Below the pieces are notes generated by a model. The model did no database searches, was not told the origin of the DNA, and was given only the letters and a program-made list of their open reading frames with translations. Of a stretch of DNA of 30,329 nt, positions 10,077 to 30,329 are shown one piece after another. Numbering within the stretch: position 1 is the stretch's first letter; the number at the start of each line of letters is the position of its first letter. This DNA is from a virus, in IMG/VR virus record IMGVR_UViG_3300043256_000411, positions 1 through 30,329 of that record, one strand, 5' to 3'. The position numbers and the translations under genes were made by a program.

Positions 10077-11315
10077 TCAGCCGCTGACCGCCACGCCCTT
10101 CGACTCGAACGTGATGTCCAGCTGCGCGGTGACCTGCCCGACCTCGATGAGCCGGGTGGGCGGGTCGCGGGAGATCGCCTCGGTGAAGTCGATCGTGCCG
10201 CCGCCCATGGTCCACCGGATCGTCTCCTCGACGCCCCGGAGGTGCTTCATGATCTCCTCGTGGGATTCGGACGGGCCGAAGACGTTCGCCTGCAGCTCCG
10301 TGGTGCGGAAGCCGGGGACGATGATCTGCCGGAAGGTCCCGCCCTGCGGGATGGTCTCCAGGTTGTTGTTGATCCGCGCCTCGACGCTCTGGATGTAGGG
10401 CGCGAGGGTGGTGCCGGCCGGCTGCTCGACCGGGTCGTCGATGAACTGCTCGTACGGCGTGCCGATCACCGCGCCGTGGGAGCCCGAGCCGAGCAGCGGG
10501 AGCCCGAGGTCGCCCTCGGTGCCGGCGTACTGCGCGCTGCCGTAGATGATGCCCAGGACCGTGCCCTTGACCGGCGCGATGTCGGTGCCGGTGTTGATCG
10601 AGATCTCGACGTCGCCCACCGTCTCCAGGTCGAGCAGCGCGCCCTCCCAGTCGGCGTAGGTGATCGGGCCGAGGCTCACGTAGGTGGTCCCGTTCAGGGC
10701 CGCGCCCTGCGAGGTCGTGGCCGCCTCGTTCTCGACGGTCAGCGTCTGCGTGGTGTCGGCCGCGTTCGTCGAGTCGATCCCGAGGAGTGTGGTCGCCAAG
10801 GGCTGGCTCCACTCGTAGGACCGGATCTTGTTGGCCTGGTAGATGACGTTCGGTCGGATCGGCTCGCCCGACGCGATCTGCCCGGGGATGGTGATCTGCC
10901 CGGCGTAGCACCCGCCCGCCACCGTGTAGATGCGGAGGCCGCCGCCCACCGCTCCGCCGCTGACCTGCAGCGCGGTGCGGATGACGATCGACAGGGAGTT
11001 CGGGATGTTCCCGTCGACGTCGCGCACGATCGCGTCGCCGAGCGGGTCCAGCGGGTCGCCGGCCGAGAGGAGCCACCGCTGGAGGTAGTATTCCATCGTG
11101 AGCGTGTGCGCCTCGGGACCCGTGAAGAACTTCTGCGGGTCGACGGAGCCCAACGCCCGCTTGGCGAAGATCTCCTTCTGCGGCTCCCACTCGGCCTTGA
11201 ACACCTCGTCCGAGAACAGCTCCCAGGCGGGGTCGGCCGGCGTCAGGCCATAGGTCACCTCGCGGACGAACTCCGGCCTCGTGTCCCGGAGCCCGGCCTC
11301 AACGAGTATCGACAT
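10077..11315 (-). CDS. Major tail (tube) protein
   Basis: ATG 11315, four bases from the previous stop and preceded by GAGGAGGG. At 412 residues the protein is longer than the usual 140-300 residue tube proteins, so it may carry an extra domain. It begins with helical/strand REVTYGLTP...AWELFSDEVFKAEWE and continues with many strands (SLSIVIRTALQVSGG, AGQITIPGQIASGEP, NVIYQANKIRSYEW, VEISINTGTDIAPVKGTVLGIIYG), and ends with AQLDITFESKGVAV, a closing strand typical of tube proteins. It directly precedes the chaperone and tape-measure genes, as expected. Extended domain could be exposed on the tail surface. Confidence 0.78.
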   Translation of the reverse strand: MSILVEAGLRDTRPEFVREVTYGLTPADPAWELFSDEVFKAEWEPQKEIFAKRALGSVDPQKFFTGPEAHTLTMEYYLQRWLLSAGDPLDPLGDAIVRDVDGNIPNSLSIVIRTALQVSGGAVGGGLRIYTVAGGCYAGQITIPGQIASGEPIRPNVIYQANKIRSYEWSQPLATTLLGIDSTNAADTTQTLTVENEAATTSQGAALNGTTYVSLGPITYADWEGALLDLETVGDVEISINTGTDIAPVKGTVLGIIYGSAQYAGTEGDLGLPLLGSGSHGAVIGTPYEQFIDDPVEQPAGTTLAPYIQSVEARINNNLETIPQGGTFRQIIVPGFRTTELQANVFGPSESHEEIMKHLRGVEETIRWTMGGGTIDFTEAISRDPPTRLIEVGQVTAQLDITFESKGVAVSG

Positions 11316-20722: not shown

Positions 20723-21009
20723 CCGAGGATGTTCCGCTCGGTCTTCCGCACGAGCGCTTGGGCCAGCCTTCGAAGCGCCTCCGTGTCCAGGTCCTCCGGC
20801 GAGAGGGCCGGATAGCGGTAGCCGCCCCGATGCAGCCAGTAGTTGATCGTCACCGGCTCGCCCGCCACGATGTCTCGTGTCACGTCCACACTCGACGGCA
20901 CGGTCCACGTCACGTCGCGGACCTCCTCTCCACCCTTGGGCAGGAACCGAGCGAGTGGCGTCGCTGCCAACGCCCCGAGCGCGGCCCGGAAGAACCTACG
21001 CCGCCGCAT
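20719..21009 (-). CDS. Small protein with twin-arginine-like signal (96 residues)
   Basis: I choose the ATG at 21009, with CAGGAG upstream, rather than the upstream in-frame ATG, since it overlaps the portal by only 14 bases. The product starts MRRRRFFRAALGALAATPLARFLP: an arginine cluster with RRxFF followed by an alanine/leucine core, as in twin-arginine (Tat) signal peptides, though the core is short. The rest is about 70 residues, mixed strands and a C-terminal helix (ALRRLAQALVRKTERNILG). No domain recognised. An exported phage protein next to the portal is odd; alternatively the N-terminus is simply a basic amphipathic helix. Confidence 0.55.
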   Translation of the reverse strand: MRRRRFFRAALGALAATPLARFLPKGGEEVRDVTWTVPSSVDVTRDIVAGEPVTINYWLHRGGYRYPALSPEDLDTEALRRLAQALVRKTERNILG

Positions 21010-22477
21010 CGGCCGTGCTCTCCTGCGCGTCCCTGGAGGTGGGCGGACCGCCGTCACCGCCGTCCGGCGCCGGTATCAGTGCGGGCGGCTTCTCGACCAT
21101 GAACTCGCCCATCTCGATCATGCCCTCCGGGAGGTTCGGGTCGAGCGCGAGGACCTGCTCCCGCGCCTCCTCGATGGACGCCGGGACTCCCAGCACGAGC
21201 GCCTCGGCCAGCGCCTTCCAGGCGTCCGCCTTGGCCTTCATGACCTCCGCCAGGTCCTTCTCGTCCAGCTCCGAGAGGGGCGGCCAGTCGACCTCGTACT
21301 CCTTCGCCTCCGGCAGTGCGCCGACGACCTGGAGCCGGTCGACGAAGGGGCGAAGCATCTGCGGCTCGGCGAACGACTCCTGCCGCTCCCGGATCCTGCC
21401 GAGCCAGTTCTTCTCGTCCATGCTGGAGGCCAGCTCGCCGGCCTCCGCGCCGAACAGGATCCGCTGCGGGATCTGCTTCGCGGCCGAGATCAGCGACTTG
21501 ATGACGAAGAAGACACCGCGCGGGTCCGGCGTGTCGCCGCCGACCATGGTGAGTTCGGCCTCCCGCGTCTGCACGAACCGCCGGATGCCCGACTGGATCG
21601 CCTCCTGGACCTTCTCGTCCAGGAGCTTCAGATCGGCCGGGTCGACATCGACGTCGCCCTTGATGTTCAGGTGCCAGATGCCGCCGACCATGTTCCAGAA
21701 CATCTCGGCCGACCCGCCGCCGATCTTCAGCAGGTCGTCGAGCAGGTTCCACACGTCTTCGAGGCGGGGCGTCCCGTTCACGTCGTCTTCGAGCAGGTCG
21801 TCCGCGACGTGCAGGATCCTCGAGTGATGGACCTTGCGCTTGCTCCTGCCGATGCCGGAGCCCCCCGCAGACTTCGCCACGCCGAACTGGATCTCGTACA
21901 TCGCAGGCAGGCCGAAGCGCGGCTCGGTCGGGTCGGACTCCAGGCTGTCGATGTCCGCGTTCTCCTGCCGGAAGACGGAGAGGAACTGGATGTCGTCGGC
22001 CCCCGAGATCCCGTCCTCGGAGAGCGGGGCTTCGAGGTCGGTGCCCTTCTGCGAGCCGATCAGCATGACGGCGTAGTTGCCGATCCCCGCCAGCCGGTCC
22101 ACACGCTCCATATAGTGCCAGAGCCGGAGCCGCTTCGCGAGGTCCTCGAAGGCGGTCTCGAAGTTCCCCTTCTGCCCCGCGGCCTGCTTCTCGTCCTCGG
22201 TGCCGGGCTCGAACACGCGGGGTGGTCTCCTCCACGTCGTCTGGGCCGGCGCGTCGACGATCGTCTTCGAGATGTCCTGGCGCCTATACCTCCGGTAGTA
22301 GTCCTTGAACTTGATCTCGTCCTGGTAGCCGAGGACCTTCCACATGTTGCGCTCGCCGCCGTGGGTGATCCCCGCCCGGTGGGCGAGCAGCTGGCGGGAG
22401 AGCGCGTCGGACACGGCGTTCGTCATGAGCCGGGTCGCCAGCTCCATCTGCTCCGAGTCAGTCAGCGGCACGGGCAC
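20996..22477 (-). CDS. Portal protein (DUF1073-type)
   Basis: Dodecameric portal at the packaging vertex, through which terminase pumps DNA and to which the neck attaches. The 493 residues fit the family. The start is a GTG at 22477 backed by a strong AAGGAGGCG site. The order of features matches the DUF1073 portals: helical N-terminus with YRRQDISKTIVDAP, an AGIGNYAVMLIG strand region, KVHHSRILHV, the FWNMVGGIWHL wing segment, and IPQRILFGAEAGELASSMDEKNW, which corresponds to the crown or stem region usually written as GIPxxxLFG with a following NW helix. The C-terminus is disordered and acidic. Its gene lies in the expected place between terminase and head morphogenesis gene. Confidence 0.88.
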   Translation of the reverse strand: MPVPLTDSEQMELATRLMTNAVSDALSRQLLAHRAGITHGGERNMWKVLGYQDEIKFKDYYRRYRRQDISKTIVDAPAQTTWRRPPRVFEPGTEDEKQAAGQKGNFETAFEDLAKRLRLWHYMERVDRLAGIGNYAVMLIGSQKGTDLEAPLSEDGISGADDIQFLSVFRQENADIDSLESDPTEPRFGLPAMYEIQFGVAKSAGGSGIGRSKRKVHHSRILHVADDLLEDDVNGTPRLEDVWNLLDDLLKIGGGSAEMFWNMVGGIWHLNIKGDVDVDPADLKLLDEKVQEAIQSGIRRFVQTREAELTMVGGDTPDPRGVFFVIKSLISAAKQIPQRILFGAEAGELASSMDEKNWLGRIRERQESFAEPQMLRPFVDRLQVVGALPEAKEYEVDWPPLSELDEKDLAEVMKAKADAWKALAEALVLGVPASIEEAREQVLALDPNLPEGMIEMGEFMVEKPPALIPAPDGGDGGPPTSRDAQESTADAAA

Positions 22478-24128: not shown

Positions 24129-25607
24129 TCACGTCCCGAACGTAACCTTGCGTGGGGTCTTCCCCGCCAGCTTGTTGTAGCAGCCTCCCACGGCGATCAC
24201 CCGGTCGTCGTGCATGCCCTTCGGCCACTGACCGACCTCCTCAAGGAACCCGGTGTTCCAGGGGCCGCGGACGAGCTTCACGTGCCCGATCTCCGAGGCG
24301 GAGGCGAACGGGTCCACCCGGGTCTCCGGGGAACCTGTCGCGCGGTCGGCGAAGGTCCGCATCCCGAACGCGATGTGCGCCCGCTTGAAGGCGAGCGACA
24401 CCGTCTTGCCCGCCGAGCCCGGCTCCTCCTCGATCCCGAACGTGATGGCGTGGCCGTGGGCCCCGTAGTCCGCCTGGTCGGTCTGGAGGATCAGCTTGTC
24501 GCGCACGCCGGGTCCCTCCCGGAAGTGCTGGATGTCGAGGATGTAGTAGACCCCGTCCGTCTGCTGCATCTTCGCCCCGGCCGTCGCGTCGCCGCCGCCC
24601 TCGGTGGAGGCATGGTCCCAGAAGCGGACCAGCCGGCCCTCCTCCGGCACGCTCTTGGGGTCGACGATCTCGTACCACGACCGCTTGAAGGTACCGCCCT
24701 CGCGCGGCGACGGCCGCTGCTGGTAGAGCGCCGAGAAGTTGTACTCGCTCATCAGCGCCTTGACGTGGACCAGGTCCTCCTCGCTTTGGCGCTCGGGGCA
24801 GAGCGGCTCGCCGGGTTCCCTCCAGTCGGGCTCCAGCGTGCAGGCCTCGGGCCAGCGCGGCGGCCGATCCCCGTTCGCCGACGGCGGGGGGTCGGGCGGG
24901 TCCTTCAGCGCCTCGAAGTTGACGATGTGCCAGCGCTCCGGGCTCCCGCCGCGCTCCTTCTCCAGCAGGAAGCCCGAGAGGTCGTCCTCGTGCCACCGGG
25001 TCTGGACCACGACGATCGCCGCGCCGGGTTCCCTCCGCGTGTAGAAGGTCGATTCCCACCAGTCCTTGTTCCGCTCCCGGATGACCTCCGACTCCGCCTC
25101 GACCCTGTCCTTCACCGGGTCGTCGACGATCCCCAGGTTGAAGCCCTTCCCCGTGATCCCGCCCCCGACGCCGGAGGCCCACATCCCGCCGCCCTCGGCC
25201 GTGTCCCACCGCCGCACGGCGCGCGAGTCGGCGACCAGCGGGTTCGTCCGCTCGTAGTTCTGCCGCGCGTGGCGCGAGAGGATGCCGGCGAGGTCGTGGG
25301 CGTAGGAGCAGAGGCCGACGTAGAAGCGCGGGTGGCGGTCCAGGTAGTAGGCGGGCAGCAGCCGGGAGATCAACTCCGACTTGCCCATGCGGGGCGGCAT
25401 GAAGACCATCACGCGGTCGAGCTGCCCGTCCACCACCTGCTGCAGCACGTCGGCTAGCACGACGCAGTGCTTGAACCAGATGTAGTCCGGCTTCACGAGG
25501 TCGACGAACTCGGGGAAGCTGCGCGCGGGGCCGCGCCCGCCCTCGACCGGCGGCGGCGTGATGCGGAGCGCGAGGTCCCGGAGGAACTCGGCCTCAGCCG
25601 TCAGCAT
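24129..25607 (-). CDS. terL: Terminase large subunit
   Basis: ATP-driven DNA packaging motor and headful or cos nuclease, acting at the portal vertex of the prohead. The 492-residue length is typical. The N-terminal ATPase shows Walker A MPPRMGKSE (about residues 69-77), a following SYAHDLA segment, Walker B LGIVDDP (about 158-164) and the coupling-type VVVQTRWHEDDLSG (about 198-212). The C-terminal RNase H-like nuclease begins with RFWDHAS (about 327-333), where the Asp is the usual first metal ligand, and ends near KGMHDDRVIAVG, carrying later acidic ligands. No truncation is visible. It starts within the end of the upstream zinc-finger gene and is separated by 29 bases from the next micro-gene. 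Confidence 0.95.
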   Translation of the reverse strand: MLTAEAEFLRDLALRITPPPVEGGRGPARSFPEFVDLVKPDYIWFKHCVVLADVLQQVVDGQLDRVMVFMPPRMGKSELISRLLPAYYLDRHPRFYVGLCSYAHDLAGILSRHARQNYERTNPLVADSRAVRRWDTAEGGGMWASGVGGGITGKGFNLGIVDDPVKDRVEAESEVIRERNKDWWESTFYTRREPGAAIVVVQTRWHEDDLSGFLLEKERGGSPERWHIVNFEALKDPPDPPPSANGDRPPRWPEACTLEPDWREPGEPLCPERQSEEDLVHVKALMSEYNFSALYQQRPSPREGGTFKRSWYEIVDPKSVPEEGRLVRFWDHASTEGGGDATAGAKMQQTDGVYYILDIQHFREGPGVRDKLILQTDQADYGAHGHAITFGIEEEPGSAGKTVSLAFKRAHIAFGMRTFADRATGSPETRVDPFASASEIGHVKLVRGPWNTGFLEEVGQWPKGMHDDRVIAVGGCYNKLAGKTPRKVTFGT

Positions 25608-28185: not shown

Positions 28186-28428
28186 TCACGCCTCCCCCCG
28201 GAACGGGAGCGAGCCCCGCTCCTTCTCGGAGCGCCCCGAGTCGAGCGCCTCCTCGAACCCCTCCTCCGCCGCGGCCTTCCACTCCGGCTCCGGCCCCAGG
28301 AGCGCGATCAACTGATCGCACACCTTGACCATAAGGTCGGCAAGCGGGTTCCCCGTGCCGCCGTACTTGTTGAGGATCTCAGCCCTCGTCTCGATCACTT
28401 CTTGGACGGTCATCTGTGGCTCCGTCAT
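28186..28428 (-). CDS. Hypothetical 80-residue protein
   Basis: Starts at the ATG that shares one base with the stop codon of the upstream zinc-motif gene (TGATG), a clear sign of translational coupling. The product is helical and acidic in its first half (EVIETRAEILNKYGG) with a middle segment DLMVKVCDQLIALLG that could be an amphipathic helix, and has a charged C-terminus. No family recognised. Its place among small genes just before the packaging and head genes suggests a minor morphogenesis or regulatory role, but nothing in the sequence proves it. The next gene starts two bases after its stop region (ATG at 28184). Confidence 0.6.
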   Translation of the reverse strand: MTEPQMTVQEVIETRAEILNKYGGTGNPLADLMVKVCDQLIALLGPEPEWKAAAEEGFEEALDSGRSEKERGSLPFRGEA

Positions 28429-29186
28429 CAGTCCTCCTCCTCCTCCTCTACGTGGACTCCCACTATCTCCTGGCCGGGCGTCAGCGCCAGCCGGGACACG
28501 AAGTTCGCCACCTGGGTCAGCGCCCTGCGACGCTCCTTCTCGCTGGAGACGTTCTCGCTGATCGCCCGTTGGATCCCCTGCGCCAGGAACACGAGCAGGG
28601 ACGCGAGCCGGGCGCGGGTGACGTTCTGCTCGGTCGCGGCCCTGGTCGCCGCCTCCGTCCTGACGAGCTTCCGGCGCAGCTCGCCCAGCCTGCACACGTC
28701 CTCCCACGAGGAGGTGTACTCGGCACCCCGCAGCAGGGCGGTCCTGAGCTCCGCCTGCGCCGCAGCCATCGCCGTGCGGTCCTGGTTGACCACCGCCGCC
28801 TCGAACTTCCGCTGCGCCTCCTTGGCCTCGATCCAAAGGTCGGTGCCTGCGCCCTCGGGCATCCCCCGGAAGACCTCGGCGATCCGGGCGTCGAGGGCCG
28901 CGATCTGCTCGTCGAGGGCCAGCTGGTCTGCGCGCCGGAGCGAGGCCTCGTAGTCGTCGGCCAGCCACTGCGGGATGTACTTGCTGCGGCGCAGGTGCTT
29001 GGCCCCCGGGTGGGCGGCGCCCCGAAGGCTGGCTCCGCCGTGGCGCTTGCACCGCCCGTCGCTCGCCTCCGGGACACCCCACCCTACGGGATGCTTGCAG
29101 TAGCCGACGCCCGCCCAGGGGCCGATGTCGACCTTCGGCTTGCCGTTCGCCCGGGTCCCCTTGTTTCGCCCGTTGCAGTACCGCAT
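28428..29186 (-). CDS. Zinc-motif HGG protein, possible small terminase subunit
   Basis: A 252-residue protein. The N-terminus carries a putative metal site: Cys4, then GYCKHP (Cys near 29) and DGRCKRHGG (Cys near 44, His near 47). This is the C...C...CxxHGG pattern common in phage proteins encoded near terminase genes. From about residue 70 to 235 it is almost entirely helical and charged, with likely coiled coil, and it ends in a run of acidic residues (VEEEEED). Small terminase subunits are typically a small DNA-binding N-terminus plus helical oligomerisation region, and no other gene upstream of the large terminase fits better, so a small-terminase role is a reasonable guess but not shown. 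The start ATG at 29186 has only a weak ribosome site. Its stop overlaps the next start by one base (TGATG). Confidence 0.55.
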   Translation of the reverse strand: MRYCNGRNKGTRANGKPKVDIGPWAGVGYCKHPVGWGVPEASDGRCKRHGGASLRGAAHPGAKHLRRSKYIPQWLADDYEASLRRADQLALDEQIAALDARIAEVFRGMPEGAGTDLWIEAKEAQRKFEAAVVNQDRTAMAAAQAELRTALLRGAEYTSSWEDVCRLGELRRKLVRTEAATRAATEQNVTRARLASLLVFLAQGIQRAISENVSSEKERRRALTQVANFVSRLALTPGQEIVGVHVEEEEED

Positions 29187-29201: not shown

Positions 29202-29696
29202 CTAGGCTAGCGGAGCGTCGTCGGTCCCCATGTGGAACGTCTCCGCTGCGACGCTCATGAGGAAGACGCGGGCGCGGGCCTCGTTCGCCGGCTCGTTCCA
29301 CCAGCGGTTGATGCCGCTCGGGTGGGGGACTACGGCGTGGCGGCGTCCGGGTGCTCCCTGCTCCCAGACCAGCCACCCGTGCCCTCTCAGGCCGAAGGCG
29401 CGAGCCACGTTGCCGCCCGCCAGCAGCACGTCGGCCTCGCGCGGGATCTCGCGAAGCAACTTTCGCGCCCCTGCCCTGGCCTCCCGGATCGGGAACCGAT
29501 CGCCCCTGCCCGCCTTCCCCGGGAAGTCGTCGAGGAGGTTCACGCGCGTCGTGAGCCGGAGCAGGTCGTCGGGCGACAGGCCCATCAGGTCGGCGAGTCG
29601 GTGGCCCGAGCCCGGTCCGTCGAAGGCTCCTTCTCCCTTCGCGCGCTCGCCCGGTGCCTGACCGACGATCCAGAGCGGCCTGCTACTCGTCGTCAT
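29202..29696 (-). CDS. Uracil-DNA glycosylase superfamily protein
   Basis: A 164-residue protein with the outline of the uracil-DNA glycosylase fold. GQAPG (residues 12-16) sits after a first beta strand (LWIV) as in motif A of families 4-6, SGHRLADLMGL (30-40) is the usual helix after it, and HPSGINRWWN (125-134) takes the place of the second catalytic loop (HPS/NPSG in relatives). Enzymes of this superfamily remove bases such as uracil or altered pyrimidines. Whether this phage form cuts, binds or processes a modified base cannot be read from sequence. It starts inside the upstream glycosyltransferase gene (14-base overlap), so the two are probably co-translated, which suggests a link to base modification. 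The length is short compared with family 4 enzymes (around 200), and no iron-sulphur cysteines are seen. Confidence 0.68.
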   Translation of the reverse strand: MTTSSRPLWIVGQAPGERAKGEGAFDGPGSGHRLADLMGLSPDDLLRLTTRVNLLDDFPGKAGRGDRFPIREARAGARKLLREIPREADVLLAGGNVARAFGLRGHGWLVWEQGAPGRRHAVVPHPSGINRWWNEPANEARARVFLMSVAAETFHMGTDDAPLA

Positions 29697-30329
29697 CGGC
29701 CAGGTCCTCTACGAGGCGTCGGTGGTCGGCGACCAGCTCCCTCATCTCGGCGCTCCGGATCTCGGGCGCGACCTGCCGCAGCGTCATCCCGTACTCGTCG
29801 GGGCCCGTCCCGACCTCGACGTCCGGCCGCCGCTTGAGCGGGGTGTCGAACTTCTGCCACGCGCTGTGGACGACGTGCTGCGGTCGACCCCACCGGCGCT
29901 TCACCTCGACGACGCCCGGCCAGCGGCGCTCCAGGCTCCGGGCCATCTTCAGCCGACCGTCCCCGGACTCGTAGAGTTCCGTCGTGTTGCCGCCCTTCAT
30001 GTTCATCGACGCGATCTTCTGGACCAGGAACGCGTTGATCAGGATCGTGCACCACCCGCCCGCGAGCACCTGCAGACAGTAGTCGGTGTCCTCGTTGTAG
30101 CGGCCGCGCCAGCGGTAGGGGAGCGAGTTCAGGACCAGCGTGCAGGAGTAGACGCGGCAGTTGAGGATGAACGGCTTCGTCACGTGCAGGCCGAACATGA
30201 CGTAGTTGAGACCCGCGAGCGCGACGTTCTCGTAGCGGTCGACGAAGTCCTCCGAGGCCGCCAGCGCGGGGCCCGACTTGCAGTGGAGGCGCTCGCCGCG
30301 GTAGACCCGCCACACGTCGTTGATGTTGT
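29683..30329 (-). CDS. TAGT-like (TET/JBP-associated) glycosyltransferase, C-terminal part; 5' end outside window
   Basis: The reading frame is open to the right edge, so only the last 214 residues are visible; a GTG at 30315 is internal. The visible part matches what I remember of the phage TAGT family, related to the C-terminal region of animal GREB1, which is thought to glycosylate oxidised 5-methyl-pyrimidines in phage DNA. Seen: a VALAGLNY block (about residues 36-42), then YRWRGRYNEDTDYCLQVL (71-88) in which ED resembles the xED catalytic-base motif of GT-A glycosyltransferases, KGGNT (111-115), DGRLKMARSLE (123-133) and GRPQHVV (147-153). The N-terminal sugar-nucleotide half, with the expected DxD, is missing from the window. 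It overlaps the next gene by 14 bases. Family assignment is from motif memory, not a search; a different GT-A enzyme is the main alternative. Confidence 0.66.
   Translation of the reverse strand, partial: NINDVWRVYRGERLHCKSGPALAASEDFVDRYENVALAGLNYVMFGLHVTKPFILNCRVYSCTLVLNSLPYRWRGRYNEDTDYCLQVLAGGWCTILINAFLVQKIASMNMKGGNTTELYESGDGRLKMARSLERRWPGVVEVKRRWGRPQHVVHSAWQKFDTPLKRRPDVEVGTGPDEYGMTLRQVAPEIRSAEMRELVADHRRLVEDLADDDE

Follow-up and report, generated by a model that had tools for sequence, protein, structure and literature searches.

Many phages carry TAGT glycosyltransferases without a known source of hydroxymethyl groups, and what these enzymes do has been called undefined; solitary TAGT genes were reported in 288 of 753 phage genomes (PMC13216743). 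Another phage modification system, CmoX/CmoA/CmoY, is associated with 5-carboxymethylcytosine. ParBc proteins were reported near CmoX, and no glycosylase was mentioned (PMC12783734). Modified bases are in turn attacked by host glycosylases of the uracil-DNA glycosylase (UDG) superfamily. Brig1 attacks alpha-glucosyl-5hmC (PMC11078745), while Brig3 attacks 5hmC and Brig2 attacks modified thymine (PMC13160076). For phages carrying 5-hmdU, phage-encoded inhibitors have been suggested (PMC6449724).

The window (the whole stretch of DNA that was analysed, 30,329 bp, 69% GC) is an entire IMG/VR virus record whose annotated genes all lie on the minus strand. At its right edge, a TAGT gene overlaps a gene for a UDG-superfamily (UDG-like) protein. 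The record stops at position 30329, where the TAGT gene runs off the edge, and what lies to the right of the window is upstream in gene order. From comparison with relatives, the UDG-like protein looks like a shared accessory of phage DNA modification. A conserved partner of this kind, which is sometimes fused to TAGT and recurs in two pathways of characterised chemistry, offers a tangible way into TAGT function; one gene can be followed in three experimental systems, and phage M6 is culturable. The interest lies in the wider pattern, in which three phage hypermodification systems share a repair-fold protein and one of them has it in fused form. No description of this pattern was found in the literature consulted, and an earlier mention of the UDG-like gene in the primary TAGT or M6 papers is possible. 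It poses the question of whether a repair-glycosylase fold now assists modification as a cofactor, repairs modified DNA, or shields it from host base-excision immunity.

The TAGT gene and its overlapping UDG-like neighbour

The original prediction took the right-edge protein for the C-terminal half of a putative TAGT, and a profile search with the fragment bears this out. The fragment (214 codons, open at the contig end) matches positions 113-205 of the 205 in PF20691 with 60.6-62.4 bits (E 1e-16 to 1e-18), against a curated gathering cut-off of 27.5 bits, and also matches phrog_842, annotated as beta-glucosyl-HMC-alpha-glucosyltransferase (E 1.6e-17). The blocks NEDTDYCLQVL, KGGNT, DGRLKMARSLE and GRPQHVV are all present in its translation. 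In the alignment the fragment begins just after the conserved LDDNI (DDN) motif of full-length relatives, and therefore the truncation reflects the contig end and not a broken gene. The N-terminal half with the DDN motif is seen in those relatives. The window thus holds a truncated member of an already known family. A pattern scan of 2.9 million IMG/VR viral contigs yielded 450 relatives confirmed by tblastn, the best of them 66% identical, and the best 80 were analysed as TAGT loci. Among isolates, 22 phage records matched, mostly Aeromonas and Vibrio phages, all below 60% identity. Two contigs carry tandem TAGT genes (L055:2984-4673 and L056:3076-4784), which may add two sugars one after another.

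The overlapping gene had been assigned to the UDG superfamily, and this assignment holds. Its product scores 34.4 bits against PF03167 (cut-off 24.3, E 2.7e-8) and matches phrog_12275 (E 2.2e-27). The AlphaFold model (pLDDT 90.8) has the MUG/UDGa fold. With Foldseek, its best solved matches were 1mug, 1ui1 (a family-4 UDGa), 3ikb, UdgX and TDG, at probability 1.00 for 1mug, 1ui1, UdgX and TDG. Motifs in the protein include GQAPG, R-x-N53, PGK-x-G-(K/R)-GD and HPSGINRWWN. Codon-position GC supports both frames, since GC3 is 0.96 in the TAGT frame and 0.87 in the UDG-like frame.

A single-sequence scan with the UDG-like protein gave no match, and an alignment of 13 UDG-like sequences was used instead. 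It found 84 relatives in viral contigs, of which 80 were kept, and a larger alignment added six relatives in metagenome-assembled bacterial contigs. Among isolates, 46 records matched, for the most part Pseudomonas phage M6 with related phages and Bordetella phage MW2, and identity was 38-42%. No isolate record among the matches listed carried both TAGT and the UDG-like gene.

As had been proposed, the two overlapping genes form one unit upstream of packaging and head genes (Table 1). The genes annotated downstream of the UDG-like gene are for packaging, head (including head morphogenesis) and tail, and genes resembling the terminase small subunit also lie between TAGT and TerL in L006, L015 and L029. 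A scan with the window TerL gave no matching relatives. Between the head and tail genes, positions 10077-11315 (minus strand) encode a 412-aa protein matching phrog_34360 at 295 bits.

Table 1. Coordinates of the gene pair, of its downstream genes, and of UDG-like genes beside CmoX/CmoA types
Feature	Contig	Position	Strand	Evidence
TAGT (PF20691), GT-A-type glycosyltransferase, C-terminal half	window	29683..30327	-	PF20691, phrog_842, relatives' alignment
UDG-superfamily (UDG-like) protein, 164 aa, ATG start	window	29202..29696	-	PF03167, phrog_12275, AlphaFold, PDB matches
TAGT/UDG-like reading-frame overlap, 14 bp	window	29683..29696	-	ORF coordinates
Probable terminase small subunit (weak), directly downstream of UDG-like gene	window	28428..29186	-	phrog_9231 E 0.015
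Terminase large subunit (TerL)	window	24129..25607	-	PF03237 + PF17289; phrog_38 3e-80
Portal protein	window	20996..22477	-	phrog_146 4e-65
UDG-like gene adjoining CmoX/CmoA types	L100	7974-8453
UDG-like gene adjoining CmoX/CmoA types	L104	7974-8429
UDG-like gene adjoining CmoX/CmoA types	L123, L128, L132, L134, others

Profile alignment to UDGa placed Q13 of the window protein at E41, A14 at G42 and N53 at N80, and H125 corresponds to H155 by motif. The family-4 hallmarks are Glu41 (GE-GP motif) and the Glu47 gate at C5; the window protein has GQAPG and Ala at these places. At the E41 position, 42 of 68 relatives have Gln and 19 have Glu. The E47 position is Gly, Thr, Ala or Ser in 59 of the 68 and Glu in none. 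The base-reading N53 is kept in all 68. H125 is likewise invariant, a count that is partly biased because the search pattern contained His; a catalytic-type His was also present in 13 of 13 members of a smaller set found without that pattern. No cysteine occurs in the 164 residues of the window protein, which therefore has no Fe-S cluster. In Tth UDGa, E47 blocks thymine, and k2/Km falls from 2.4e5 to 2.7e2 with E41Q and to 9.4e1 with H155S (PMC5387724). Judged from these residues, the pocket is probably open at C5 and catalysis probably reduced, though not certainly absent. Since 19 of the 68 relatives keep Glu at the E41 position, attenuation is not family-wide.

Genomic partners of the two families

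The functional link that had been proposed between TAGT and the UDG-like protein is borne out in other contigs. TAGT is rare in the collection, yet 21 of the 80 UDG loci have it within about 8 kb of the UDG-like gene. Conversely, the UDG-like family was found in 11 of the 80 TAGT loci (the best 80 of 450). Apart from the window, both families occur together in 21 distinct IMG/VR contigs, and in eight of these TAGT is directly upstream of the UDG-like gene, on the same strand and within 150 bp. Random placement gave a mean of 0.11 such same-strand direct adjacencies and a maximum of three in 20,000 trials. The arrangement of the window is repeated in L086, where the two frames overlap by a few bases. 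In four contigs (L053, L054, L062 and L110) they are a single fused ORF, with TAGT N-terminal and the UDG domain C-terminal. This recurrent adjacency and fusion show that the pairing is not due to chance and support a functional link between the two proteins. By sequence the four fusions sit in one clade and may represent a single event.

The fusion in L053 was modelled as two separately folded domains with a low-confidence joint at residues 354-358; UDG-only rows were misplaced when aligned with the fusions and were left out of the model. Structure comparison matched the TAGT part to GT-A enzymes, among them TarP and heparosan synthase, and the UDG part to family-4 UDG and MUG.

Further analysis of the TAGT loci revealed a different upstream partner from the one expected. 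The original prediction had placed oxygenase or other modification enzymes beyond the right edge; in 76 of the 80 TAGT loci (the best 80 of 450), a ParB-like gene lies upstream on the same strand. Such a gene is therefore the best prediction for the sequence beyond 30329. Its product is of about 209 aa (e.g., L079:1537-2166 and L003:9051-9731). For this comparison, neighbouring genes were clustered with a coverage rule, as plain single-linkage mixed ParB-like and TAGT genes. Genes of terminase/portal clusters follow within 4.5 kb of TAGT in at least 39 of the 80 loci, and radical SAM/SPASM proteins occur in nine. SAM methyltransferases and a sugar-nucleotide epimerase/dehydratase also recur near TAGT. 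In L006, a close relative in which both genes occur, the order is radical SAM, UDG-like, ParB-like, TAGT, epimerase and then terminase. Base-modification genes, which had been expected nearby, were thus found in relatives only (the M6-type 5-hmdU genes, CmoX/CmoA, radical SAM, methyltransferases and epimerase).

A source for the acceptor group was sought in 49 TAGT contigs, some of up to 141 kb and many of them fragments. Tet_JBP (PF12851) was detected in none of the 49, a result that weighs little against an oxygenase partner since the control genomes were silent as well. Thymidylate-synthase-type hydroxymethylase (PF00303) was also absent from all 49, with the control positive in nine of 14, and is not supported as the acceptor source. 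C5 cytosine methylase was set aside as a TAGT partner because it is present in only six of the 49. Neither the PF00303 search nor the TET search (control silent) accounts for the acceptor group of the TAGT sugar. In one TAGT contig (L047:6697-7902), the 3'-5' exonuclease domain of a DNA polymerase A is fused to a canonical UDG domain, which is separate from the UDG-like family.

The UDG-like family was found in three modification contexts. After removal of contig duplicates, with some near-identical contigs left in, 72 UDG loci were sorted by their neighbours: 13 have TAGT, 24 have CmoX or CmoA, 11 have HMUDK, ADDT or PLP genes of the M6 type, and 24 have none of these. The three contexts do not overlap in any of the 72. 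In M6 and MW2, the UDG-like gene is flanked by ribonucleotide reductase on one side and by the thymine-hypermodification genes on the other; the latter include HMUDK (PF18723) and ADDT (PF18724). In about 22 loci it is directly beside genes for a CmoX-type C5 methylase and a CmoA type. The CmoX-type call rests on PF00145, and the CmoA call on TIGR00740 at 136 bits, below the 193-bit equivalog cut-off, together with neighbourhood similarity to phage S-B43. Two loci counted here, L103 and L122, have a distant C5 methylase alone, and their assignment is doubtful. On the UDG tree, whose deep branches are weakly supported and on which the position of the window is not settled, the partner labels are clustered, yet parsimony requires at least 17 changes. 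This suggests that the UDG-like protein moved between pathways and was not carried along in one frozen neighbourhood. Outside these contexts, L124 (L124:3-1555) has no TAGT, and its UDG-like gene is overlapped by a radical SAM/SPASM gene from the family that also occurs around TAGT. In both L124 and L125, TerS (PF20901) and a TerL-cluster gene lie downstream; this arrangement is possibly a fourth modification context.

Candidate roles of the UDG-like protein

We favour, with a probability of about 0.4, a hypermodification cassette in which TAGT sugars a C5-substituted pyrimidine and the UDG-like protein serves as an attenuated, C5-tolerant subunit that reads the base and hands it over. Beyond the observed families, fold, linkage, fusion, shared contexts and pocket residues, we infer the sugar, the base, its flipping and the hand-over. 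The cassette would follow the order seen in relatives, namely ParB-like, TAGT, UDG-like and then terminase. TAGT would take a sugar from a nucleotide-sugar and attach it to a C5-substituted pyrimidine of the phage DNA. Having flipped the C5-modified pyrimidine, the UDG-like protein would keep hold of it, excise it rarely if at all and pass it to the modifying enzyme, and half-finished bases might incidentally be kept from host glycosylases.

Tentatively, this role may reach further than TAGT. A former repair glycosylase with its C5 gate opened and its catalysis weakened could have become a base-reading and hand-over module of at least three pathways. These would be TAGT sugar transfer, CmoX/CmoA carboxymethylcytosine and amino-acid-derived thymines, which are otherwise unrelated, and in some phages the reader would be fused directly to the sugar transferase. 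Reading and hand-over are supported by the fusions, the directional adjacency, the three contexts, the open C5 gate, the Gln at the E41 position and the kept Asn, and the cassette by the epimerase/dehydratase and SAM methyltransferases that recur near TAGT. Several observations count against them. A pure reader would not need the invariant catalytic-type His. CmoX and other C5-methyltransferases flip the target base themselves, so that a helper should be unnecessary. The one-third of UDG loci outside the three pathways and the fusions confined to one clade, maybe a single event, also weaken hand-over, and the missing hydroxymethyl-acceptor source in TAGT contigs weakens the cassette.

Much of the same pocket evidence bears on a somewhat unlikely alternative, in which the protein is a repair glycosylase of the SMUG1/TDG type. 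It would remove C5-substituted uracils arising from deaminated modified cytosines, or stray uracil and intermediates, in phage DNA that ordinary host UDGs cannot service. The lost C5 gate suits such a substrate, N53 (UDGa N80) and H125 (H155) are conserved, and the best fold matches include MUG and TDG. However, fusion to a glycosyltransferase is unexpected for a repair enzyme, Gln at the E41 position in most members predicts weak catalysis (PMC5387724), and a canonical UDG is separately encoded in contigs such as L047. In M6-type phages, moreover, 5-hmdU in the phage's own DNA could itself become a target of a C5-tolerant uracil glycosylase. One protein serving three chemistries would instead be accounted for by a counter-defence shield, that is, a weakened glycosylase-fold protein that covers modified bases or abasic sites and blocks Brig1, Brig2, Brig3 or Mug-type repair. 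Host glycosylases of the UDG superfamily attack exactly such modified bases. This reading is improbable, as a soluble shield needs neither fusion to nor overlap with a transferase and the catalytic-type His is kept.

Base-excision attack on phage DNA by a UDG fold is known (PMC11078745), and an offensive glycosylase directed at host or rival-phage DNA that lacks the phage's own modification would, with the adjacent modification enzyme as self-protection, resemble restriction-modification. We regard this as very unlikely, given that no toxin-antidote layout was seen, that the association covers different modifications on C and T, and that predicted catalysis is weak in most members. It is scarcely credible that TAGT and the UDG-like protein are separate early or packaging-proximal genes that came to sit together by chance. 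No UDG-like gene was detectable in 69 of the 80 TAGT loci within the stretches examined, and 24 of the 72 UDG loci have none of the three pathways, as mere proximity would allow. The fusions, a directional adjacency far above chance and the enrichment of TAGT at UDG loci over its rate in the collection all speak against it.

Comparison with known systems

The closest counterpart of the window TAGT is the family of PF20691 and the T6 beta-glucosyl-HMC-alpha-glucosyltransferase (phrog_842), with which it shares the NEDTD and KGGNT blocks and a profile match in the half that is present. A GT-A fold was reported for the T6 enzyme (PMC13216743), and the relatives' model matches the GT-A enzymes TarP and heparosan synthase. 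Unlike the T6 system, the relatives of the window have no detectable hydroxymethylase or TET (the TET control was silent), and they have a ParB-like gene and sometimes a fused UDG-like domain.

The UDG-like protein is 38-42% identical to M6 gp48 and MW2 gp08 over about 90% of its length (tblastn), and the MW2 protein matches the fold of the window model at a TM of 0.82. The partners in M6 and MW2 are ribonucleotide reductase, ADDT, PLP, radical-SAM and 5-hmdU kinase genes, and not TAGT. With family-4 UDGa and MUG it shares the fold (TM 0.66 to 1ui1 and 0.62 to 1mug) and the equivalents of N80 and H155. It differs from family-4 UDGa in having no Fe-S cluster, Gln for Glu41, no E47 gate, and PGK-x-GKGD in place of the N89 region.

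The 5-carboxymethylcytosine system of CmoX, CmoA and CmoY (PMC12783734) is linked to the window through the UDG-like family, which adjoins CmoX and CmoA homologues. ParB-like proteins accompany both this system and TAGT, whereas the chemistry differs. Brig1, Brig2 and Brig3, which act on modified phage bases in host base-excision defence, resemble the UDG-like protein in belonging to the UDG superfamily. They are host-encoded and destructive, whereas the window protein is phage-encoded and lies inside a putative modification cassette.
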